From Chlorobiota bacterium (GTDB lineage Bacteria; Bacteroidota; Ignavibacteria; Kapaibacteriales; NICIL-2), in the NCBI GenBank assembly GCA_026416585.1, contig JAOAEV010000057.1:1-33479 (forward strand): a stretch of DNA of 33,479 nucleotides, read 5' to 3'. This document shows, piece by piece, positions 4,536 to 29,225 of this stretch (position 1 is the stretch's first letter; each line of letters begins with the position of its first letter). The notes beneath the pieces are model-generated. The model did no database searches, had not been told where the DNA came from, and worked only from the letters and a program-made list of their open reading frames with translations. Both the position numbers and the translations under genes were made by a program.

Positions 4536-4885
4536 GCATAGTGAAATCTGCAATCGTTAGCTGTATAGTTATTGTGTATGGTTTTGCATTGATGGCGGTC
4601 GGCATCACGATAGCCGTTACGGGGCAGCACTATGCTCCAATTGTAATGCTTGGCGGCATCGGTGGTGGAATCCTCGTTATGATATTGGGTGCGATGTGGC
4701 GCAGACGAATTCTCTGGAGCAGAGCTGCTTTAGCAACTGCAGTAGGCATTTTCTCACTCAGCTTTGTTTGGCGTGCTATCGAAGCTTGGCTTCATCAGTC
4801 CACTGGAAGCGGTCTGCTGCTATTGGTTCTGGCAGTAGTTTCGATACCGATTTTTATTCTTCTTGTTCGTCATAGAAACCAATGA
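4532..4885 (+). CDS. Small four-helix membrane protein, unrecognised
   Basis: A 117-residue, strongly hydrophobic protein with four predicted transmembrane helices (about residues 6-30, 35-55, 62-83 and 93-113). A basic patch (WRRR, about 56-59) lies between helices two and three, and the C-terminus is basic (VRHRNQ). No family was recognised. It is coupled by ATGA overlaps to both neighbours, the LolD-like ATPase upstream and hslV downstream, so it is almost certainly translated from the same message. It is too small to be a LolC/E or MacB permease and lacks their large periplasmic domain. A helper role for the ATPase is possible, but only gene position suggests it. Confidence 0.7.
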   Translation: MSIVKSAIVSCIVIVYGFALMAVGITIAVTGQHYAPIVMLGGIGGGILVMILGAMWRRRILWSRAALATAVGIFSLSFVWRAIEAWLHQSTGSGLLLLVLAVVSIPIFILLVRHRNQ

Positions 4886-5430
4886 AGCATCATTCGAGCA
4901 TTTGTTACGGTACGACAGTAATTGCGGTTTTGCGCGATGGGAAAGCATGCATCGGCAGCGATGGTCAAGTATCGCTTGATGCAACGATCGTCAAAAGCGG
5001 TGCGCGAAAAGTCCGACGGCTGTACAACGACACTGTGCTTGCAGGTTTTGCTGGTGCGACAGCAGATGCGTTTACGCTGCTGGAACGCTTCGACGAACAG
5101 CTTGGTGCTCACCGTGGCAATCTTGCCCGCAGTGCGGTCGAGCTCGCGAAAGCATGGCGCACGGACCGATTCCTGAGACGGTTAGAGGCAATGCTCGTTG
5201 CGGCAAACAAAACAGAAATCGTGCTCATTAGTGGCAATGGCGATGTCATTGTACCCGACGACAACATCGCAGCGGTTGGCTCTGGTGGCAACTATGCCCT
5301 TGCTGCAGCGCGTGTTTTGATGCGTCATACCAACATGAACGCACGTCAAATCGTCGAGGAATCCCTCCGTGTTGCATCGGAAATTTGTGTATTTACCAAC
5401 GATCGCTTCACGATCGAAGAATTGCCATGA
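4882..5430 (+). CDS. hslV: ATP-dependent protease peptidase subunit HslV
   Basis: HslV (ClpQ) is the proteasome-like threonine peptidase that stacks as two hexamers capped by HslU in the cytoplasm. The 182-residue product carries a ten-residue propeptide ending in glycine, after which mature TTVIAV begins with the catalytic Thr11. Conserved segments follow: [50 protein letters not shown], and [14 protein letters not shown], ending with the usual TIEELP. Many HslV proteins from other phyla also carry a short propeptide, whereas E. coli loses only its initiator methionine. The start overlaps the preceding stop (ATGA) and the stop overlaps hslU (ATGA), as expected for a two-subunit complex made in fixed proportion. 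Confidence 0.97.
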
Positions 5431-6791
5431 CAACAATACAACCGTCTATTCTCACCCCCCGACAGATCGTCGCTGAGTTAGACAAGTACATCATCGGTCA
5501 GCACGAAGCCAAACGAGCACTCGCGATCGCACTCCGCAATCGGTGGCGGCGTCGGCGAGTCGAGGGTGCATTGCGCGATGAGATCATGCCGAACAACATC
5601 ATCTTGATTGGTCCAACGGGTGTTGGTAAGACCGAATTGGCTCGACGTCTGGCGCGATTGGCCGGTGCACCATTTGTCAAAGTCGAAGCGACGAAATTCA
5701 CCGAGGTTGGATACGTTGGTCGAGATGTCGAAAGCATGATCCGCGATCTGGCAGAAACGGCAGTAGCACTGGTGCGTCAGGAAAAAACAGAGGAGAAACG
5801 ACGTGATGCTGCAACTGCAGCAGAGGAACGTTTGCTCGATATCCTGGTGCCGACACCCCGTAGTGGGGTCTCCTTCGACTTAGGTTCGGCGGCAGAGCTC
5901 GAGCGATATACCGAACACCGTGCGCAAATGCGCTATCGGCTCAGTACTGGTGAACTCGATGATACTATGATCGAAATCGAGCAGTCTGTGCCACAGATGC
6001 CTATGCTACAAGTGATGGGTCCAGTAGGACTTGACGATCTTGGCATCAACGTGCAAGACATGCTTGGGCGTTTTCTACCGAAAACGACAAAACGTCGCAA
6101 AGTCACCGTTGCACAAGCACGAACGCTGTTTCAGCAAGAAGAAGCTGAAAAGCTGATTGATATGGATGCCGTCGTTCGTGATGCGCTCACCAGAGCAGAG
6201 ACGATGGGAATTGTTTTCATTGACGAAATAGATAAGATCGCTGTACGCGGGCAGTCGAGTGGACCAGATGTTTCGCGCGAGGGTGTCCAGCGTGACTTAC
6301 TCCCGATCGTCGAAGGATCGACAGTAAACACCAAATACGGTCCGCTGCGGACAGACCATGTGCTGTTTATTGCCTCCGGTGCATTTCACATCAGCAAGCC
6401 ATCGGACTTGATTCCTGAATTGCAGGGGAGATTCCCGATTCGTGTCGAGCTGCACTCGCTCACGGAGCAAGATTTTGTGCAGATCCTGACATTGCCCGAA
6501 AACGCGCTGATCAAACAGTATCGCGCACTTCTTGAGACCGAAAGCATCTCTTTGGAATTCACCAATGATGCCATCGAGGAAATTGCAGCCATTGCAGCGC
6601 AGGTCAACGAAACAGTATCCAACATCGGTGCGCGGCGCTTGCATACGATTCTGACTGCGCTGCTCGACGATGTGCTCTTCGACGCACCGGACGCGACGAC
6701 CGACAGCCATATCGTGGTGGATGCATCGTATGTTCGTGCGCGACTCGAGCAGCTCGCCCATGATGTGGATCTAAGCAGGTATATGCTCTGA
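5427..6791 (+). CDS. hslU: ATP-dependent protease ATPase subunit HslU
   Basis: HslU (ClpY) is the AAA+ unfoldase that feeds substrates into HslV. The 454-residue protein begins with the HslU-typical [19 protein letters not shown] region. Walker A is GPTGVGKTE (62-70), followed by the [15 protein letters not shown] pore-loop region containing the GYVG motif, an intermediate domain (about 110-230), Walker [11 protein letters not shown], and an arginine-finger/sensor region around [12 protein letters not shown]. The C-terminus LSRYML matches the conserved HslU tail that inserts into HslV to activate it. ATG 5427 overlaps the hslV stop; the 14-residue in-frame extension upstream lies entirely within hslV and is not conserved. 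The next gene, for a VWA protein, overlaps by one base. Confidence 0.97.
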
Positions 6792-7885
6792 TGCTCAGCA
6801 TTCGTTATACAGCCTGGCACGACGGTGCAGCGACTGCTGAAGAACAGCTCGAGCGGTTGCTGAAACTATTTCGCGTTGTACTGCTCAAAGCCGATATGGA
6901 CGTTACCGAGGCGCTTGAGCTGATTGAACTGCTCGACGAGCGCTATGGCGTACTCGGCTCCATGAGCATGGAGGATTACATCGCATTGCTCCGTGCTGAG
7001 GGATTGCTCGAAGAACGTGACGGACAACTCCGACCAACCGCAAAAACAGAACGCTTATTGCGAACTGACGCTCTCGACGAAATCTTTCGCACCCTCAAAA
7101 AAGGCGAGCTCGGGAATCATGACATCCCACACAATGGTGAGGGTAGCGAGCCTCTTCCAGAAACACGACGCTTCATGTTTGGTGACCCCATAAACTTGAT
7201 CGATCCAACCGAAACGCTGCAAAACGCATTGATCCGCGACTACACGCTTGATCAATTTTCCCTCCATGAAGACGACATCAGCGTTCACGAGACCGAACAT
7301 GCAACGAGTTGTGCAGCCGTACTGGCGATAGACATCTCGCATTCGATGGTGCTCTATGGTGAGGACCGCATCACTCCTGCAAAATGCGTCGCACTGGCAC
7401 TGGTGGAGCTTATCACCACCAAGTATCCTACTGACCAATTAGATGTGATCATTTTCGGTGACGAAGCGCAACGTATCGAGCGGGGGTTGATTCCATACAT
7501 CAGTGTCGGACCGTTTCACACCAATACTCGTGATGCGCTTCGCTTAGCACGTCAGCTTCTGCGACGGATGCGCGGTGCCAACAAACAAATTTTGCTCATC
7601 ACTGATGGTAAACCATCGGCGATTTTCGATGATGCAGGACGACTCTACAAAAACCCATTCGGACTCGACCCGCGAATAGTCAACAAAACACTCGACGAAG
7701 CCGTAGCGTGTCGGCGCGATGGTATCACGATTAGCACCTTCATGATCGCACGCGATCAGTACTTGCGGGGATTTGTCGAAGAGCTCACGCGTGCCAATCG
7801 GGGGCGAGCATTCTACAGCGAACTTGACCAGCTTGGGAAAATGCTGATAGTGGACTACGTCCGCAATCGCCGTATGTACCGTTGA
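6791..7885 (+). CDS. VWA-domain protein, MoxR-partner type
   Basis: A 364-residue protein with a helical N-terminal half (1-170) and a C-terminal von Willebrand factor A domain (about 176-355). The MIDAS metal site is visible as DISHSM (DxSxS) near residue 182, with a threonine-bearing loop around FHTNTRDAL and a later ITDGKPS motif supplying the aspartate. No signal peptide or transmembrane helix is seen, so it should be cytoplasmic. Proteins of this shape usually work with a MoxR- or Mg-chelatase-type AAA+ ATPase, often encoded next door. Here the adjacent AAA+ gene is hslU, which overlaps it by one base (TGATG), and no MoxR gene is in the window. The biochemical role is unknown; the domain call is firm. 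Confidence 0.85.
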
Positions 7886-7931
7886 GAGTACTGTATTTTG
7901 GCGTCATGTTCGTAAAAGTGTCGAGCAGAGA

Positions 7932-9716
7932 ATGACACCACTTCTTCGTGTCGAGCATCTTGTAACCGAGTTCCGCACTGAAGACCGCATCGTTCGTGCT
8001 GTCGATGATGTTTCATTTGTTATACCGCGTGGAAAAACAGTTGGTATTGTGGGCGAATCTGGATCGGGAAAATCTGTAACTGCTCTTTCGATTATGCGAT
8101 TGATACCGACACCGCCTGGTCGCATTGTGAGCGGTGCAGTGCTGTTTCGCGATGGTGACGGAACGGAGCAAGATCTGCTGTCGCTGTCAGAAGAACAAAT
8201 GCGCTATTATCGCGGCAATAGAATCGGGATGATTTTTCAAGAGCCAATGACGTCGCTCAACCCGGTGTTTCGCTGTGGTGACCAGGTTGCTGAAGCGCTA
8301 CGAATCCATGTAGGCATGGATACAGAGCAAGCACGCCAGCGCACGCTCGAACTATTCGAGGAAGTGCAGTTGCCACGCCCAGAGGTCATGCTCAACCAAT
8401 ATCCGCACCAGCTTTCCGGGGGTCAAAAGCAGCGGGTAATGATCGCCATGGCGATGGCATGTAATCCTGATCTACTTATTGCCGATGAGCCGACCACAGC
8501 CCTGGATGTGACAGTACAAGCGACAATACTTGACCTCATTAAGCGCCTGCAGCAAACGCACGGAATGAGTGTACTCTTTATCACGCACGATTTAGGCGTT
8601 GTTGCTGAAATAGCCGACGAGGTCGTGGTAATGTATCGCGGGCGCATTGTTGAGCAGGGAAGCGTTCTCGATGTATTTGCACGTCCGCAGCATCCGTACA
8701 CAAAAGGGCTGCTGGCGTGCCGTCCGCGATTGGATGTCCGCTTGCGCGTACTCCCGACAGTCCACGATTTTATGGAAGAACAGCCTGATGGTACGATTGC
8801 GGAGCGAATCAGCGGGGATGTCGAGATGATTATTCGGGAGCGCGCCGAAACCGACGCTGACCGTTCAGAGCGCCGCCGACGCATCGAGCAAAGCGATGTG
8901 CTCTTGGAAGTAGAAGATCTGGCGGTGCATTTTCCGATTCGTACAGGCTTGTTCAGTCGTGTGTCCGGGTGGGTTAAGGCTGTCGATGGCGTCAGCTTCA
9001 GCGTTCGCCGTGGGGAAACCCTTGGGTTGGTTGGTGAATCAGGCTGTGGAAAGACAACCACCGGTCGAGCCGTCTTGCGTTTGATTGAGCCGACTGCCGG
9101 ACGTGTTGTTTTTGACGGACACTCCGTGTTGTCGCTATCCAAATCGGAGCTGACATCGCTTCGACGACACATGCAAATCATTTTCCAGGATCCGTACTCA
9201 TCGCTCAATCCACGGTTAACCGTCGGTAGTGCGATGATGGAGGTACTCAAAGTGCATGGTCGGTTTTCCAGCGACAGCGAGCGACGCGAATACATCGAAG
9301 AATTGCTCGTCAAGGTTGGATTGGAGCCGCATCATTACCATAATTATCCACACGAATTCAGCGGCGGCCAGCGTCAGCGCATCTGTATTGCTCGGGCATT
9401 GGCACTGGAGCCGAAGTTGCTCATTTGTGATGAATCAGTCTCAGCGCTTGATGTCAGTGTCCAGGCACAAGTGCTCAACTTACTTGTGCGGCTCCGCGAC
9501 GAATTAGGGCTGACCTACATTTTCATCTCCCATGATCTGAGTGTGGTCAAATTCCTCAGCGACAGAATTGCAGTCATGCACGCTGGTAAAATCGTCGAAA
9601 TTGGCGATGCAGACGAGCTCTATCGCCATCCGCGAGAGGAATACACACGCAAACTCATTAGTGCAATTCCCACCCCGACTGTGGAGACAATTCGTCACCG
9701 CTACCAAGCTGCATAA
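7932..9716 (+). CDS. Tandem ABC ATPase, dipeptide/oligopeptide importer type (DppD-DppF fusion)
   Basis: A 594-residue protein with two complete nucleotide-binding domains, as in GsiA or YejF. Domain 1 (about 4-265) has Walker [10 protein letters not shown] (41-49), Q-loop [11 protein letters not shown], signature LSGGQKQRV and Walker [13 protein letters not shown], with an HPYTKGLL tail typical of DppD/OppD. Domain 2 (about 318-590) has Walker [10 protein letters not shown] (368-376), Q-loop [11 protein letters not shown], signature FSGGQRQRI, Walker [13 protein letters not shown] and an OppF-like ending. The second Walker B has DES rather than DEP, a common OppF variant. Such fusions energise import of peptides or nickel, but no permease or binding-protein gene is in the window. 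An AG-rich ribosome-binding sequence precedes ATG 7932, and 46 nt separate it from the VWA gene. Confidence 0.92.
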
Positions 9717-16187: not shown

Positions 16188-16224
16188 GCCACCGCGTGTT
16201 GGATCTCTACCGCGGGTGGACACG

Positions 16225-17940
16225 ATGAATGTGCGCGCGATCGTAGTCGGTGTGCTGTGCTGCTCAGTGGTTGTTACTGCATCGAGCAGAGGTGATTCTG
16301 TCGCGACAGACGATGTTGTGCTCGATGCACTCCGCACCGAGCTTGGACGTTGGTATTCGGCTTTAGCATCTGCTAAGCCATCAGCATACTTCATCGGGTA
16401 TTGGGTATACGACCAGCAGTCACTTGTGTTAACAGCCAGCGATGGTGCACTGATAAGGTCGGAAGCGTTACGTCGCCGTACGCTTGATGTGAGTGTTCGT
16501 GTCGGGAGCTACCAATTCGATAATACCCACATTCTCCGCGGTTCGAGCAGCATCCAATTCGGCAGTGCAAAAAATTCTACTGAGTTGCCGTTCGACGGTG
16601 ATGCTGTGGCACTTCGTCAAGCTGTCTGGATGGCAACTGATAATGCCTACAAAACAGCTGCTGAACGCTACGAAAAATTGCTCACCAATCGAGCTGTCAA
16701 GGTACGAGAAGAGGATAGTTCTGCTGATTTCACACCGTATCCTCCTCAACGTAGCTATCAATCACCAATTGCGTTGACGTGTGATACTGCATCCTGGGCA
16801 GAACGATTGCGGCGGTGGTCGGCGCTTCTGACAGCAGCATCACATGTGTTGAGCGGCCAAATCACACTTTCGGCAGTGGTCAGTCGAAAGTACCTGGTTA
16901 CCAGCGAAGGAACCGAGCTGGTGACGACAGAGCCACAATGGCGGCTGACAGTTGCCGCATATGCAAAAGCCGATGACGGTATGACGTTGCCGCTTTACCG
17001 CACCTACATGAGTCGGAGTTCCGGAGGACTCCCCACGCCTGATTCCATTGAGCGTGATATTTCCGGGGTCGTTCAGCTTCTCGGAGAATTGGTGCGGGCG
17101 CCGGTTCTGGAGTCCTATGCTGGACCTGCACTGCTGTCTGGACGTGCTGCCGGAGTGTTTTTTCATGAAATATTTGGACATCGTGCCGAAGGGCATCGCA
17201 TCAAAGATCCGAATTCGAGTCAGACGCTCAAGCCATTTGTCGGTAAGCAGCTGTTACCCACGTTTTTGGATGTCGTTTTCGATCCAATGATTGAACGCTA
17301 TGCAGGTGTCGAACTAAGCGGAAGCTATCGCTTTGATGATGAGGGGGTCCCTGCACAGCGGGTTGTCAGTGTTGCGAGTGGCATCTTCAAAAATTTCCTT
17401 ATGTGCCGCTCACCAATCGAAGGATTCCCTCAGTCGAATGGTCACGGTCGAAAACAAGAGGGATACTCACCGGTGGCTCGCCAGTCGAATCTCCTTGTCA
17501 TCGCACGTCATACTGTTCCGTTTGACTCGCTAAAAGAATTGCTCCGTGCCGAATGCCAACGTCAAGGCAAACCGTTCGGTCTGTATTTTGATGAAATTGC
17601 GGGTGGCTTTACATTTACCTCGCGCACAATTCCCAATGCGTTCACAGTACAGCCACTGGTCGTCTACAAAGTGTTTGCTGACGGTTCGCCTGATGAGTTG
17701 ATTCGTGGGGTGGATTTTATCGGCACGCCACTGGCTACGTTTGCCAACATTGTCGTAGCATCGGATCGTGTAGGTGTCTTCAACGGGATCTGTGGTGCTG
17801 AATCGGGATCGGTCCCAGTATCTGCGTGCTCCCCAGATTTGCTGGTGTCGAAAATTGAGGTGCAGAAAAAAGCCAAGTCACAGTCGAAACCACCGCTGCT
17901 CCCAGCGCCATCGTACACCACCGATGGACAGGTGCCATAA
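16225..17940 (+). CDS. Exported TldD-like metalloprotease, active subunit
   Basis: A 571-residue TldD/PmbA-family protein with an N-terminal signal-like segment (about residues 3-20, ending TASS). The zinc-protease motif HEIFGH (HExxxH, H314-H319) is complete, preceded by YAGPALLSGRAAGVFF. The third TldD zinc ligand is expected in the GICGAESGSVPV segment near C523. The C-terminus has a PPLLPAP tail. Cytosolic TldD/TldE in E. coli cleaves unfolded peptides such as microcin B17 precursor and CcdA; here both members appear exported, so the substrate would be in the periplasm or at the surface. ATG 16225 follows GGGTGGA; a GTG at 16216 is also in frame. The stop overlaps the next gene's start by one base (TAATG). 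Confidence 0.88.
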   Translation: MNVRAIVVGVLCCSVVVTASSRGDSVATDDVVLDALRTELGRWYSALASAKPSAYFIGYWVYDQQSLVLTASDGALIRSEALRRRTLDVSVRVGSYQFDNTHILRGSSSIQFGSAKNSTELPFDGDAVALRQAVWMATDNAYKTAAERYEKLLTNRAVKVREEDSSADFTPYPPQRSYQSPIALTCDTASWAERLRRWSALLTAASHVLSGQITLSAVVSRKYLVTSEGTELVTTEPQWRLTVAAYAKADDGMTLPLYRTYMSRSSGGLPTPDSIERDISGVVQLLGELVRAPVLESYAGPALLSGRAAGVFFHEIFGHRAEGHRIKDPNSSQTLKPFVGKQLLPTFLDVVFDPMIERYAGVELSGSYRFDDEGVPAQRVVSVASGIFKNFLMCRSPIEGFPQSNGHGRKQEGYSPVARQSNLLVIARHTVPFDSLKELLRAECQRQGKPFGLYFDEIAGGFTFTSRTIPNAFTVQPLVVYKVFADGSPDELIRGVDFIGTPLATFANIVVASDRVGVFNGICGAESGSVPVSACSPDLLVSKIEVQKKAKSQSKPPLLPAPSYTTDGQVP

Positions 17941-19727
17941 TGAGGCAGATACTTGCGTTTGTGGTATTCGCGATCGGTACGTCTGTGTGGGCAGCGAACA
18001 TGCCGCCATGGGTCGGCGATGTTCAACGTGCGTTCCGGGATGAACTACGCCGTTCTGTGGATAGCCTTTCGATTCCCTCGCTGAAGCGACCGTATTACAT
18101 CGAGTACACGTTGCGCTATCGCTGGACTACGCGAGCAAAAGCATCCTTTGGTGGCTTACTCGATAGTGCACGAGCCGAGTCCGCACGGTTGACTGTTGGC
18201 ATACGAGTCGGTTCGCCAGAGCGCGACAATACAAATTTTTTTGATGCTGCACTTTTGTTCTTCGGCGGAGATGATCGGGAGGAAAACTACCGCAATCGGC
18301 TCGTTCCGTACCAGCTGGACTATCGAGTAGTGCGTCGAAATCTGTGGTTGGCAACCGATGCGGCGTTCAAAGCGGCGGTCGAGCAGTATGCCAAAAAAGA
18401 AGCGGCGCTGAAAAATCGTGTTCAGCAGGATACGACACCAGATTTTGTTTTGCTTCCGCCAGTGACGCTTGCCGATACCACTGACCCGATTCCAGAGGTG
18501 AACCTGCAACACGTTGCAGAGCAGATTCAGCGTGTATCGGCGATTGCTCGGCACTATCCTGCTATCCAAAACGCAACTGTAACCTTCGAACACTTACCAG
18601 AGCTTGTCATCTATGCCAACAGCGAGGGGCGGACATTTGTCAAACTTTATCGTCAGGCTGGCATTGAAATCATCGCAACGGCGCAATCCCCCGATGGCAT
18701 GCCTCTGGCGCAGACTTACGCTGCCTATTCCCGAACACTCGACGAGCTGCCAGCGTGGGATTCGCTTGAGCGTGCCATGCATCACGTCGCCCAGCGGCTA
18801 AGTACTCAAGTTGCGGCAGTGCCGATGTCCGAAGCGTATTCGGGTCCTGTACTCTTTTGCAGGCAAGCAGCAGCAGAACTGTTTGCGCAGGTGTTTGCTC
18901 CGAACCTGGTAGCACAGCGGACATGGCTCACCGAGCGTGGCGTGCAGGAACAGGAACGCTATACAGCGCTCCAGAACAAGATTGGTGCTCGTGTCACCGC
19001 GGAGTTTCTCTCGGTCGAAAGCACTCCAACTCTTGCCTTTATTGGTAAAACGGCCGCTGCTGGTGCCTATCACATTGACGACGAAGGAGTCGAGCCAACG
19101 CCTCTGACCCTGGTGCGAGGTGGTTATCTGGAAAATTTGCTCAGTTCACGGGTTCCCACACGTCGTGTTCGCAGTTCGAATGGGCGCATGCGAGGTGGTG
19201 GAGCAATGTATGATGTACTTCAGGTTCGATGCAACGACCGTCGGCGGGCTGTCGGTGAGCGAGAGCTTATTGCTCGCATGATAGAGATTCTCGATCGTCG
19301 TGGTTTGCAATATGGCTACATCGTCAGTGAAGTGCTCGATCAGAATCTACTATACACAGCGGTCTATTCTCAGACAAACGGTACCTTCCCTGTGGGTAGT
19401 GAGGATCAAATTCCTGCACTGGAGGTGGAGCGCCTTTGGCGAAATGGCAAACGCGAACGAGTTCGCGGAGTTTTCATCGCTCCTGGCGGATATCGTGTGT
19501 TTCGTGATGTTATTGCGGTCGGCAAGTCAACATATGTCCATAATTTGCTAGCTCCATCGGTAATCTCGCCATATCGAACTGGTGGTGCGCAGTACGTCAT
19601 TGCGACCGTTGCATCACCAGACATACTCGTTGAGGACGTCGAGCTGCGACCTGTCGAAGGCGGCTATCCTACACCGCCATTGATTGCAAGCCCGCTCCAG
19701 GAGCAGGTCGAGCGTAAGCAGAAGTAA
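17940..19727 (+). CDS. Exported TldE-like partner lacking the zinc site
   Basis: A 595-residue paralogue of the preceding protein with a clear signal peptide (MRQILAFVVFAIGTSVWAA). The family fold is recognisable: YSGPVLFCRQAAAELF lines up with YAGPALLSGRAAGVFF of its neighbour, and SSNGRMRGG resembles the SNGHGRKQEG region. At the catalytic position the protease motif HEIFGH is replaced by AQVFAP (residues 316-321), and the cysteine of the GICG segment is absent. It also ends in a proline-rich PPLIASP tail. This mirrors the TldD/TldE heterodimer, in which only TldD carries zinc. One-base overlap with the upstream gene supports a complex made in equal amounts. Whether it has any activity of its own is unknown. 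Confidence 0.83.
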   Translation: MRQILAFVVFAIGTSVWAANMPPWVGDVQRAFRDELRRSVDSLSIPSLKRPYYIEYTLRYRWTTRAKASFGGLLDSARAESARLTVGIRVGSPERDNTNFFDAALLFFGGDDREENYRNRLVPYQLDYRVVRRNLWLATDAAFKAAVEQYAKKEAALKNRVQQDTTPDFVLLPPVTLADTTDPIPEVNLQHVAEQIQRVSAIARHYPAIQNATVTFEHLPELVIYANSEGRTFVKLYRQAGIEIIATAQSPDGMPLAQTYAAYSRTLDELPAWDSLERAMHHVAQRLSTQVAAVPMSEAYSGPVLFCRQAAAELFAQVFAPNLVAQRTWLTERGVQEQERYTALQNKIGARVTAEFLSVESTPTLAFIGKTAAAGAYHIDDEGVEPTPLTLVRGGYLENLLSSRVPTRRVRSSNGRMRGGGAMYDVLQVRCNDRRRAVGERELIARMIEILDRRGLQYGYIVSEVLDQNLLYTAVYSQTNGTFPVGSEDQIPALEVERLWRNGKRERVRGVFIAPGGYRVFRDVIAVGKSTYVHNLLAPSVISPYRTGGAQYVIATVASPDILVEDVELRPVEGGYPTPPLIASPLQEQVERKQK

Positions 19728-24131: not shown

Positions 24132-27100
24132 TCAGTGCAGAACGACAACCATTCCGGATGCTCGAACGACTCCCGCAGAGACGATAACACGATAGACACC
24201 GGTCGGAAGTTCGGCAGTCGAAATCTCCAGTGTATGAACGCCTGGAGCCAGCGTACCGAAGTCACGAGCGTATATACTCCGATTCCCGCTGATCGAGAGA
24301 AATTCAACCGTCGGGCTGGTGTATTCTTCGAGTGCGATGCTAAGCCGAACACGATTGTCGGCAGGATTCGGCTCGACGATCAAAAAGCCACCGGGTGTTC
24401 CGGGTCGTGCGATCGTCACGCCACACTTCCCACCAGCGAGAGTCGGCGTTGTACTACCAAGTAGCTGTACATCCAGAAACAGAAGCGAATCTGTTTGCAC
24501 CGGGGCGGTTGGTTCGATAACTAAAACGTCGCTAATTGTATCGGGGACAGCTATGCGGAATCGCAACAATGCGAATGTATCTCCTCGCATTGTGGGTACA
24601 CGGTGGATTCCGGCGTGCAGTGTTGCCGGAAAGCCAAACGTATCTCGGAGCACTCCATTGGGTAGTCGAGACTCGATACCAAGATACTTGAGCATGGTCG
24701 GATTCCACTGCACGCGAAAGCCAAATGAAAATGCTTCGAGCCAATACGTCGTTCCGTGGTAGGAAGCTGCTACATCGCGGTCCAGCAGTAGTGGGATTGT
24801 GATGGTATCGCCAAGCGTTCCACCACGGGCAGAAGGATTTGCTGGATTGCTTGGGTCGGTGGTGATCCGAAGGGGGAACGGCGGTGCATATCCTTTACCG
24901 AGTATTCGTAGTGTGTCGGCGCACCGACAGGGATTAGTGCTGACAATTACTGATAATGTATCAACATGTGAAAAATCACGCGGGCAGTATTCGATTGTGA
25001 CAATGGTTTCTTCGCCAGGCAATCGTGGTACACTCCGATCCGGCACAAAAGCAATTGCGCGCATTGTCGGTGGTAGGTTCAGAAGCGAGTCAATCGTCAG
25101 GGGTACATCCCCAGTGTTACGTATGACAATCTGGCGTTGGTCGCAGTCGAGGACACGAACACTGTCGAACGAAACCACACCCTGTGATGGAGGACTCATA
25201 AGGGTTATTGTGGCAGCTTCGATGATGACAAGCGCACGATCACCACGTGTGGTGCTGAGGTCATATCGCAAAATTTCGGTTGTGTTGAAATCGAATTCAC
25301 CTATTTCGATTGTCGCGGTATCGCGTTGCCGACGGAGAGGAATAAAATGTGCAATCAACATGCGCCCCAGGGAATCAACGTCAAGCAATTTCTCGAGCCG
25401 AGCGACGGCGCCAGCGCTGTCGTAGGTGAGCGTTTGTAGTGTCGCATTGTATCCGGGAGTTACGCCGATCAATTTCAGCTTTGTTGTGTCGTATGTGAAC
25501 CGGCAGGCAAAATCAATCAAGCTGCGTTGAGCTGAGGTCTTAGGAAGTGCGCGCGATGCATACACTGGGACGTGAAGTGTATCGCACGAGATAACGCGAA
25601 ACGTATCGAGTGCAACACCGCTGGAATCGAACTGAAGATACATTGCATACGGGAAACCCGCTGCACCAATGCCTACCAAAAAAATGGTCGTGTCCAGATC
25701 AATGCATGGTTTGCTGTAGTAAATGCCAACGCGTGCCCGATACGTTCGCGGTGCACGTGGGCGAAAGTCGAAGCGAATGTTCAGTGATGCTGATGTACCT
25801 GGAATCAGGCGATATGGGAGTGTTACTGGGCGATTGCGTTCGTCGGTCAGTGTGTATCGAAATACCCGCTCATCTGGAATAAACGTGATGGAATCTATCT
25901 GTACAGTGTCTTGAAATGGATTCCACGTTAGCGAAGGAATTGTCAGACGCGATACGGGTGGTGAATTGGGATTTACCGCAGCATCAACATCAACCAGCGT
26001 GATCGGGAATGAAAATTGCGTCGGCGATGGGCGAAACGTCAATGCTCGTCGCCCAATAAGGTACACGTCGTAGCGATCATTCCACCCCACACCGTGTGCG
26101 ACGATACGCAGACGTGCGCTGGCGACGACCTGCGATGTATCGGCAGCGGTTCGCGGACAAAAGACAATGCGCAGTGTATCGGTGGTCTGGGGCGGTATTG
26201 TGTAGGGAAGGTTGCGACTATTCTGCTCGTAGTACGTCGAGGTGAATGTAAAGAGTTGTGGTGTGGCATTAGGTATGCCGATGGAGTCTATCACGAGCGA
26301 ATCGATCGTCATTGGATGCACAACAGAGTTATTCGCAAGCGGTATCTCTCGAACAATGCATTCACAGGGTCGCACATAGCTAAAATTCTGAATGCTGATT
26401 GGTGCATCAAGACGGTAAATAATTGCCCGTCCGCGAAGTTCTCCGTTGCTTCTGATTGCCACGCACGGCGAATCGCTTTCTACCGTGATAGGTGCATTGA
26501 ACGTACCGACAGCCGCCGGCGCAAATCGCACAATGACCATCAGTGAGTCGCGCTGGCTAAGCACCACTGGTAGCGGAGGTGATATGCTTTGAATCGTAAA
26601 TCCGATGGGAACATTGACACGGTCGATCCGAACCGGCACAGGCGAAATGTTCTCGATTGCCACCAGATTATCGCGTACCTCTCCGACTTCGATTGTTCCG
26701 TAATCTGTTGTCGGTGTGACGTAGAGTTTTGGTGTAATGGAGTTCGCACGTACTTGTACCATCCAATCTTCCCCAGACGCCGAGCGGTATCGGATGAAGC
26801 CAACAACAGCGATATCGTTGCCGCGACTGGATGGGACAAAACGAATTGCAATTCGTACACGCCCACCTGGAGAAATCCGAAGCGAGGGTGGTAGTTGAAT
26901 GCGTGCCCCAGTTATTGTGTCGATGGTAAAGAGCGTTCCTGATGGATCGTCGAGTCGCAAGTTGGTCAGTTGTTGTTCGATGCTCGACTCGTTGATGATT
27001 TCGATAATTGCCGAACTCGAATCGCACGAGAGTACTCGCTCAACCTGTAATACGGGTGGCTCATAGCGAAACTTTTCGATAATCCCGCGTCCACGAATAG

Positions 27101-29225
27101 GGATGCAACCACTCATGTAACACCGCTGTTCAAATAAGCATAAAGTGTCGGTGTAGTCAACAGCATTAGTAGGGCGAAAAGCTAAGATGTTTGTCAGTGT
27201 GCGAGTCTGGAGTGGGGCTACTTGTACATTCCGTTGGAGTAGAACGAATTCTTCTCCACGTTTGAGGTAGAGCGAGACTGTCAATACATCGGTGCTGCTA
27301 TTGTTGCGCAGCACGACATCGCGCCGTGCTTCTTGCCCGACGATAACATTCCCAAAGTCTATTGCCGTTGCTGCAAACTCGACGTCTTTGTCGAGACCTC
27401 GCCCCGTCAATGGTATAACGATGACAAACTGGCATGGCTCACCAGGTAGTCGTGCATAAAACACAACCGAATCGCGAACCACCCCCGGCTGAAGCGGGCG
27501 GAAACGGAAATACTTTTCAAACTCCCCCGTTTGGTTCGATGGCGGCAGTGTGTACGGAAAGCGTGGCATGCGTACCGCGACCAAAACACGAGGATAGACA
27601 ACGCTATCAATGATGAGATTTCGTCCTGTCATGTTGTACCAGTTCCACGCCTGCGGGGAGGATAAATCGCCAGGACATGTACCAGGAAACTGAAAAGAAG
27701 TGATCGGGGTGCTGCCATTGGGTCGTCGAATTGCGAATACTTGCTGGGTCTGTCCCGATAGTGGAATAATTCCATTCCCCGGGCACCGATCAGTCGAGAG
27801 AATAAAAAGCGTGTCGAGAAACAGCAGTGTTGTATCCTGTGCTGAGAAACGCACAACGATGTCGGCACACTCACCCGGTTGGAGTACAAGTGGAAATGTG
27901 CGTCCGCCAGCAGGAAAAGCTCTGAAGACCGATGTAAGCCGTGTCAACGCGCCAGTGATAGTCACAGCTCTGGCAGTGCCGAGCAATGCACTTTCATTAC
28001 AGATACGGATGGTTGTATCAAGGTACGCACGACTTGGACATCGCGCAAACAGAGTGTCGAAGGCAATGCGTGCCGGTGTGTATGCAAGCTCGGTGCGACG
28101 AGTCAATTGGAATCGGATAGTGTCGCTGTACGAACAGCGATTGCCACCAACAATTCGGACGAATGCTTGAATTGTACCGGTTAGATACCCGTTGTAGCTC
28201 ACAGTGGCGGTCATCGGCACACCACCGGGTGGCAGCATGATGGTGTTGGGCACGACTCGGAAAAACGAGCGATCACGCCCGCCAATGGATAGGGAAACTG
28301 TGCTACCACACTCAGTGGTATCTGCAAGAGTCAGTGTCCACGTACGTGACGAGTCGCAATCGAGTTGCTCGTTGATCGCTTGCGGAGCCATTGTGACTGA
28401 GCGTGGTATTGTGCGTGCTGGGGATGGTGGACGACATGTTGCACCGCTGAACAGTCGTCCGTTGTTGCCGTTCCCCGAGGCATCACACAGTGGGGTGAGG
28501 AAATCATTTTCTTGCTCGTTGCAACGGAAATAGAGAACCAGACCTGGCTCATTTCCTTCCAATGACCGAAAACGATTGCATGCAATTTCCTGGCGCTGGA
28601 GCGTGCGAGTCCAGATGCGGATTTCGTCGAGTTGCCCAATGAAGGCACGGTTGCTCGGTGAGTCGAAGAAACCATTGATGCTGCCGATTTTCAGTGCAGA
28701 GGAGGGATTCCTCGGTTGCCGTACCTGCGTCGCAGGGTACTGCTGATTGTATGCTGAATCTTGCAAGACACCATTGATGTACAGCCGGACGGTGCCGGCA
28801 TCGAACGTTGCAGCAATATGTGTCCAGCGCCCGTAATAAGCGACAAATGGCGCACGTGCAATCGTGTTGTCGAGCGCTCCGCGATCGAGCGGACCGTTTA
28901 CTTCGAACGTCAGCTCGTCGCTCGGCGAAATGTAAAGAACCCATACGTCATTATCGTCGGTGTATGGACCCCAGATGCCAGCGATCAACACACGTCCACC
29001 ACTTTGACGAGAGGCATTGATCCACATTTCCACAGTCATTTGTGCAGAGATGCCTCTTAGCGATGGAGATGCAGCGACATTGACGTAGTGGTGATTTTGA
29101 CCAGTAGCGACCGAGGCTGTATATGCCCGACCAATACAGGCTTTGTTCCCATCACACGCTCCGATAGCCGGAGCAATACTGGTACAGAAGCACGACATTG
29201 CAAATACGACAAGTAGCAACGCCAT
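24132..29225 (-). CDS. Giant secreted LamG/ASH-repeat protein with type IX secretion sorting domain
   Basis: A 1,697-residue exported protein. A signal peptide (1-23) leads to a LamG/concanavalin-like domain (about 45-262) with AQMTVEMWINA, GRWTHIAATFDAGTVRLYINGV split over the usual strands, and IGQLDEIRIWTRTL. From about 280 to 1300 come Ig-like ASH/choice-of-anchor-D repeats recognisable by recurrent VxxCDS, IxNxS and IxIRFxP motifs. Two cohesin-like segments follow, with DFACRFTYDTTKLKLIGV and FGFRVQWNPTMLKYLGI. The last ~85 residues (VEPNPADNRVRLSI through PTGVYRVIVSAG) form a type A T9SS sorting domain, predicting passage through the outer membrane and surface attachment. Ligand and role are unknown; adhesion or matrix structure is plausible. 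It diverges from the phosphatase gene. Confidence 0.88.
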   Translation of the reverse strand: MALLLVVFAMSCFCTSIAPAIGACDGNKACIGRAYTASVATGQNHHYVNVAASPSLRGISAQMTVEMWINASRQSGGRVLIAGIWGPYTDDNDVWVLYISPSDELTFEVNGPLDRGALDNTIARAPFVAYYGRWTHIAATFDAGTVRLYINGVLQDSAYNQQYPATQVRQPRNPSSALKIGSINGFFDSPSNRAFIGQLDEIRIWTRTLQRQEIACNRFRSLEGNEPGLVLYFRCNEQENDFLTPLCDASGNGNNGRLFSGATCRPPSPARTIPRSVTMAPQAINEQLDCDSSRTWTLTLADTTECGSTVSLSIGGRDRSFFRVVPNTIMLPPGGVPMTATVSYNGYLTGTIQAFVRIVGGNRCSYSDTIRFQLTRRTELAYTPARIAFDTLFARCPSRAYLDTTIRICNESALLGTARAVTITGALTRLTSVFRAFPAGGRTFPLVLQPGECADIVVRFSAQDTTLLFLDTLFILSTDRCPGNGIIPLSGQTQQVFAIRRPNGSTPITSFQFPGTCPGDLSSPQAWNWYNMTGRNLIIDSVVYPRVLVAVRMPRFPYTLPPSNQTGEFEKYFRFRPLQPGVVRDSVVFYARLPGEPCQFVIVIPLTGRGLDKDVEFAATAIDFGNVIVGQEARRDVVLRNNSSTDVLTVSLYLKRGEEFVLLQRNVQVAPLQTRTLTNILAFRPTNAVDYTDTLCLFEQRCYMSGCIPIRGRGIIEKFRYEPPVLQVERVLSCDSSSAIIEIINESSIEQQLTNLRLDDPSGTLFTIDTITGARIQLPPSLRISPGGRVRIAIRFVPSSRGNDIAVVGFIRYRSASGEDWMVQVRANSITPKLYVTPTTDYGTIEVGEVRDNLVAIENISPVPVRIDRVNVPIGFTIQSISPPLPVVLSQRDSLMVIVRFAPAAVGTFNAPITVESDSPCVAIRSNGELRGRAIIYRLDAPISIQNFSYVRPCECIVREIPLANNSVVHPMTIDSLVIDSIGIPNATPQLFTFTSTYYEQNSRNLPYTIPPQTTDTLRIVFCPRTAADTSQVVASARLRIVAHGVGWNDRYDVYLIGRRALTFRPSPTQFSFPITLVDVDAAVNPNSPPVSRLTIPSLTWNPFQDTVQIDSITFIPDERVFRYTLTDERNRPVTLPYRLIPGTSASLNIRFDFRPRAPRTYRARVGIYYSKPCIDLDTTIFLVGIGAAGFPYAMYLQFDSSGVALDTFRVISCDTLHVPVYASRALPKTSAQRSLIDFACRFTYDTTKLKLIGVTPGYNATLQTLTYDSAGAVARLEKLLDVDSLGRMLIAHFIPLRRQRDTATIEIGEFDFNTTEILRYDLSTTRGDRALVIIEAATITLMSPPSQGVVSFDSVRVLDCDQRQIVIRNTGDVPLTIDSLLNLPPTMRAIAFVPDRSVPRLPGEETIVTIEYCPRDFSHVDTLSVIVSTNPCRCADTLRILGKGYAPPFPLRITTDPSNPANPSARGGTLGDTITIPLLLDRDVAASYHGTTYWLEAFSFGFRVQWNPTMLKYLGIESRLPNGVLRDTFGFPATLHAGIHRVPTMRGDTFALLRFRIAVPDTISDVLVIEPTAPVQTDSLLFLDVQLLGSTTPTLAGGKCGVTIARPGTPGGFLIVEPNPADNRVRLSIALEEYTSPTVEFLSISGNRSIYARDFGTLAPGVHTLEISTAELPTGVYRVIVSAGVVRASGMVVVLH

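Follow-up and report, generated by a model that had tools for sequence, protein, structure and literature searches.

Two genes in the window, here called A and B, probably encode an extracytoplasmic, and most likely periplasmic, heterodimeric zinc peptidase that works in the manner of TldD/TldE. The window is the whole stretch of DNA analyzed, 33,479 nucleotides of contig JAOAEV010000057.1 from a Kapabacteria-like genome (2.06 Mb in 131 contigs), and A and B are the sole PF19289-type genes of that genome. The genes rpsF and rplI lie 5' of A, and a UDP-glucose dehydrogenase gene lies 3' of B. The layout, predicted leaders and key sites of the pair are the following:

16225 to 17940, plus strand: gene A, predicted exported TldD-like zinc metallopeptidase subunit, 571 aa (PF19289, E = 3.3e-22)
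16225 to 16281, plus strand: predicted Sec signal sequence of A, about residues 1 to 19, with a V-x-A cleavage site (rule-based)
17164 to 17181, plus strand: HEIFGH of A, the zinc-binding motif, residues 314 to 319, aligned with residues 262 to 267 of E. coli TldD
17791 to 17793, plus strand: Cys523 of A, aligned with Cys454, the third metal ligand of TldD
17940 to 19727, plus strand: gene B, predicted exported, catalytically dead paralogue of A, 595 aa (PF19289, E = 1.6e-13)
17940 to 17993, plus strand: predicted Sec signal sequence of B, about residues 1 to 18 (rule-based)
18885 to 18902, plus strand: AQVFAP of B, a degenerate site, residues 316 to 321, where A has HExxxH

The start codon of A is the ATG at 16225, with a GTG in the same frame at 16216; that of B lies inside the stop codon of A (TAATG), which confirms the one-base overlap described in the original prediction. 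That prediction had singled out an exported TldD/TldE-like pair with one inactivated subunit. Both properties are supported here; the dead partner in itself is ordinary, since canonical TldD/TldE, too, has an inactive half in TldE (PMC5810440).

Fold and catalytic residues

Canonical TldD/TldE is a hollow heterodimer in which metal is bound by TldD only; its cleft takes up substrate strands irrespective of their sequence, and unfolded N-termini are proposed to be threaded in and trimmed (PMC5810440). Both A and B match the C-terminal domain of TldD/PmbA (PF19289), with 79.2 and 50.8 bits against a curated cut-off of 22, and this domain was matched in all 77 family members. The Pfam scan found no match to the TldD N-domain (PF01523) in A, B or anywhere in the genome, and A reaches 37.3 of 513 and 67.6 of 635 bits with the NCBIfam equivalogs NF008006 and NF040952, so that it is assigned to neither. 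The family databases thus place A and B in the broad superfamily only, far below the TldD/PmbA equivalog cut-offs.

Structure prediction with AlphaFold2 from family alignments, run on A and B as separate chains, gave models with a pLDDT of 86 and a pTM of 0.83 for A and with values of 92.6 and 0.90 for B. In these models the two-domain TldD/TldE fold is predicted to span the whole chain of either protein, and the N-domain of A aligns structurally with that of TldD although PF01523 goes undetected. The best Foldseek matches have E-values of 1.9e-30 (A) and 2.4e-26 (B), and all 16 matches at E ≤ 0.001 are TldD/TldE-family entries. The E. coli TldD chain (5nj5 chain A) aligns with the A model at Z 29.6 over 443 aa and with the B model at Z 30.2 over 440 aa; TldE/PmbA chains score lower (Z 23.2 to 26.6 with A, 23.0 to 26.5 with B). 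B is like TldE/PmbA (5nj5 chain B; Z 24 over 426 aa) in its fold and in being a dead paralogue of an active subunit, but it is closer to TldD chains (Z 30.2) than to TldE chains (24.4) and has residues at the Cys454 segment, where TldE has a gap. Since B is structurally nearer to TldD, a TldE-like role as one half of a shell would be a role by analogy. Modeling of the complex based on the fusions described below was also attempted; in the alignment that combined a fusion with separate A and B chains, the B rows had apparently been placed on the A half (23 to 29% identity to the fusion), and that alignment was dropped.

A is like TldD (MEROPS M103) in its HExxxH-plus-cysteine site as well as in its full-length fold. 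Its HEIFGH motif and Cys523 align with the metal ligands His262, His267 and Cys454 of E. coli TldD, and the counterparts of Glu263, Glu270 and the brace Arg362 in the alignment are Glu315, Glu322 and Arg419. The motif and cysteine that had been read in A proved invariant (H314, E315, H319 and C523 in 77 of 77 relatives); E322 and R419 are also invariant in A and are lost in B. The reading of AQVFAP and of a missing cysteine in B was equally borne out: none of 59 B relatives has both histidines or the cysteine, none retains HExxxH, and the glutamate found at the second motif position in seven of them stands without the ligands. A differs from TldD in being about 90 aa longer, in its Sec signal sequence, in its N-domain undetected by PF01523 and in the absence of the K456/D272 tether pair. 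The latter is replaced by Ala525 and, mostly, His324, so that the clamp of A would be held differently. The proline-rich PPL(L/I) tail that had been noted in both proteins is common, but not universal, a PP(L/I/V/M/F) ending being present in 57 of 77 A and 29 of 59 B.

Export signals of the two chains

Both chains appear to be exported. The N-termini of A (MNVRAIVVGVLCCSVVVTA) and B (MRQILAFVVFAIGTSVWA) each display a basic n-region, a hydrophobic core and an A-x-A-like c-region. Signals in the family were called by a rule-based prediction, made independent of the choice of start codon by seeking the hydrophobic core upstream of the mature domain. Such a core was found in 76 of 76 A and 59 of 59 B relatives, as against 205 of 511 N-termini of neighboring genes and 26 of 680 internal windows; the first control is perhaps high because many neighbors are envelope proteins, and the internal windows are the fairer one. 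The n-region, core and A-x-A-like site are all present in 68 of the 76 A and 56 of the 59 B. Thus, the signal sequences originally assigned to both proteins withstand closer analysis across the family. A lipoprotein reading of A, from an LCC in its sequence, was discarded, as inspection revealed no lipobox.

In contrast to cytosolic TldD/TldE, then, every relative scored has by these rules a signal-like N-terminus, whether it is an A or a B chain. The open literature that we searched contained no paper on an exported TldD pair. A Leptospira exoproteome does list a TldD, which may come from lysis because HslU, ClpP and methionine aminopeptidase are listed alongside it.

Twin-arginine-like leaders are found in two places. 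The B of L102 starts with MRRRDFAGLLPMAALAQ, a leader of this kind, whereas most other B have Sec-type leaders. RRDF or RKDF leaders also occur on the TldD of several Bacteroidota (loci L165-L169 and L105; genomes G145, G077, G149, G148, G133 and G018); the adjoining TldE is without a leader in those checked, which could reflect hitchhiker export through Tat. In L165-L169 an Asp is aligned with the third ligand Cys. These proteins are like A in that a TldD-family enzyme bears an apparent export signal, but they differ from the A/B pair in that typical examples have the leader (RRDF type) on one subunit only and in that they group with canonical TldD.

Pairing and descent

The original proposal of a heterodimer is supported by natural fusions of A and B and by their co-retention even when unlinked. 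The two genes are adjacent and on the same strand in the 57 loci in which both were read, mostly overlapping or close. They are fused in a single frame in one Kapabacteria genus (L104/G024, L045/G063 and G064) and also in an Eisenbacteria MAG (L103). L045 matches G063 at 93%, and the G064 fusion is 60% identical to that of G024. In the fusions that were read (L104, L045 and L103), B begins at its mature domain and the internal signal sequence is gone. Sequencing error is an unlikely origin of the fusions, given that G064 is fused at this level of identity and that the internal signal is lost.

Among 80 genomes of the order that are at least 95% complete, A is present in 80 and B in 79, with B matching at E 1e-120 or better, and genomes of 1.8 to 2.0 Mb are included in this order-wide presence. 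G041, the sole genome without a B match at this level, has an A match that ends before the C-terminus of A. The pair is thus core to the order. Several genomes have A and B unlinked (150 kb apart in G021, on different contigs in G035), and three (G059, G167 and G186) have two pairs each. Some loci (L050, L052, L054, L060, L062, L067 and L072) show a gap of about 525 to 570 bases between A and B. In L050 this gap holds a gene (7637 to 8170) for a 177-aa membrane protein, weakly DUF6141-like (Pfam match under the cut-off, E 0.0047), of a cluster common to eight loci; it occurs in some Kapabacteria and is absent elsewhere.

The nearest relatives of A, 69 to 76% identical, come from Kapabacteria/Kapaibacterium MAGs. 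The pair is distributed across Kapabacteria, other Ignavibacteria, Bacteroidota, Acidobacteria, Aminicenantes, Eisenbacteria and a Phycisphaerales MAG. Among 99 Bacteroidota genomes drawn evenly, A/B-type matches were limited to the order of the window, and the others had canonical matches or none.

In a tree of A, B, canonical TldD, Tat-type TldD and TldE built on 309 columns of the C-domain, A and B each form a group, and A+B is split from TldD, Tat-type TldD and TldE with support of 100/100. A tree that forces the actives (A with TldD) apart from the inactives is rejected (delta lnL 60.7, p-AU 0.00013). With the active-site and tail columns removed, A+B still receives 100/100, and B is not clearly monophyletic. 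Profile comparison gives E = 5e-113 for A against B over 548 columns, 3.5e-28 for A against TldD and 5.6e-16 for B against TldE. These trees rule out B as a TldE orthologue and point to an independently inactivated sister of A. As HExxxH and the cysteine are common to A and TldD, the losses in B and TldE would be separate wherever the root lies; that B lost its catalytic site independently of TldE is the parsimonious reading of a divergent alignment with long branches.

Substrates and wider significance

The conserved parts of A and the fold of B make TldD/TldE-like working, moved outside the cytoplasm, the most likely function. Each subunit would be exported by its own Sec signal, and the two would assemble outside the cytoplasm into a hollow TldD/TldE-like shell. 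A would furnish the metal site (His314, Glu315, His319 and Cys523) and may depend, as TldD does, on its inactive partner, with B being the half that would close the chamber. The chamber would take in short peptides or unfolded N-termini by threading and trim them, which is the mode of action proposed for TldD/TldE. Our best guess, given the core status of the pair in the order and its lack of a dedicated cluster, is a general envelope role, such as the clearing or trimming of unfolded exported peptides.

Clustering of neighboring genes of at least 90 aa yielded no common partner gene and pointed to no substrate; the clusters differ by clade and comprise gpmA, NTP transferase, panD, Wzz/O-antigen ligase/PBP, LptF/G, ccmF and BatA-like genes. 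In Acidobacteria (L091, L093, L095, L096, L101 and L102), a gene of about 780 aa from the LptF/LptG cluster lies directly 3' of B, with a gap of -37 to 19; in L091 and L101, which were scanned with Pfam, it has two LptF_LptG stretches, and a possible LPS-export operon may be seen here. Elsewhere in the window, at positions 4882 to 6791, a proteasome-type gene adjoins an AAA_2/ClpB-small-domain gene in an HslV/HslU-like pair, and a VWA-domain protein is encoded after them. The protein encoded on the minus strand at 24132 to 29225 (1697 aa) combines a Laminin_G_3 domain with several Ig-like repeats of the ASH/HYDIN type, which match the Cep192, HYDIN and DUF1573 families.

An envelope substrate of another kind must be weighed, namely a non-peptide one (for example N-acyl groups on polysaccharide, LPS or fragments of the cell wall), on which the pair would act as an extracytoplasmic amide hydrolase. 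We retain this reading because LPS-export and exopolysaccharide genes adjoin the pair in some clades, as with the UDP-glucose dehydrogenase of the window, LptF/LptG in Acidobacteria, and Wzz, O-antigen ligase and PBP downstream of B in some Kapabacteria; moreover, the superfamily has been reviewed as holding N-deacetylases beside peptidases (title of Vobruba 2022, as cited in PMC10885120). However, the variation of neighbors among clades (gpmA, NTP transferase, panD, ccmF and others) makes the association a weak one, and A keeps the core metal-site and brace residues of TldD (H262, E263, H267, E270, R362 and C454), so that we regard it as unlikely. The known role of cytosolic TldD/TldE, which matures microcin B17, suggests another possibility, in which A and B would process one specific exported peptide, RiPP-like or signaling. 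The documented substrates of E. coli TldD/TldE are CcdA and a modified microcin precursor before its export, both inside the cell. Processing of a single peptide seems to us quite unlikely, as the same neighbor clustering gave no consistent small-peptide, modification-enzyme or peptidase-containing transporter gene and the pair is found throughout the order, in its 1.8 to 2.0 Mb genomes too. That A and B are unpaired homodimers, B being a non-catalytic binding protein, is very improbable: TldE alone does crystallise as a homodimer (PMC5810440) and the genes are unlinked in some families, but A and B are fused in two separate lineages, overlap or lie close in most others and are strictly co-retained.

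As regards the heterodimeric peptidase that we favor, TldD/TldE with its inactive TldE was already known, and the dead partner is an ordinary part of such a system. What is new, as read from the genomes, is that both chains are apparently exported, that A+B forms its own clade, that natural fusions exist and that the pair is core to the order. On balance, we are inclined to see in it a second, independently evolved TldD/TldE-type heterodimer outside the cytoplasm, the dead partner of which arose by its own duplication, and which would serve Kapabacteria, Acidobacteria and other phyla as a general ATP-free chamber for peptide trimming in the envelope. The single-chain natural fusions offer a convenient protein for structure and assay. 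Being core to an entire order of uncultured bacteria, the pair would point to a step of peptide processing in the envelope of which we found no description. If the heterodimer reading is right, self-compartmentalised proteolysis of the TldD type would also take place outside the cytoplasm, and the combination of an active with a dead subunit would have evolved twice in the same fold.
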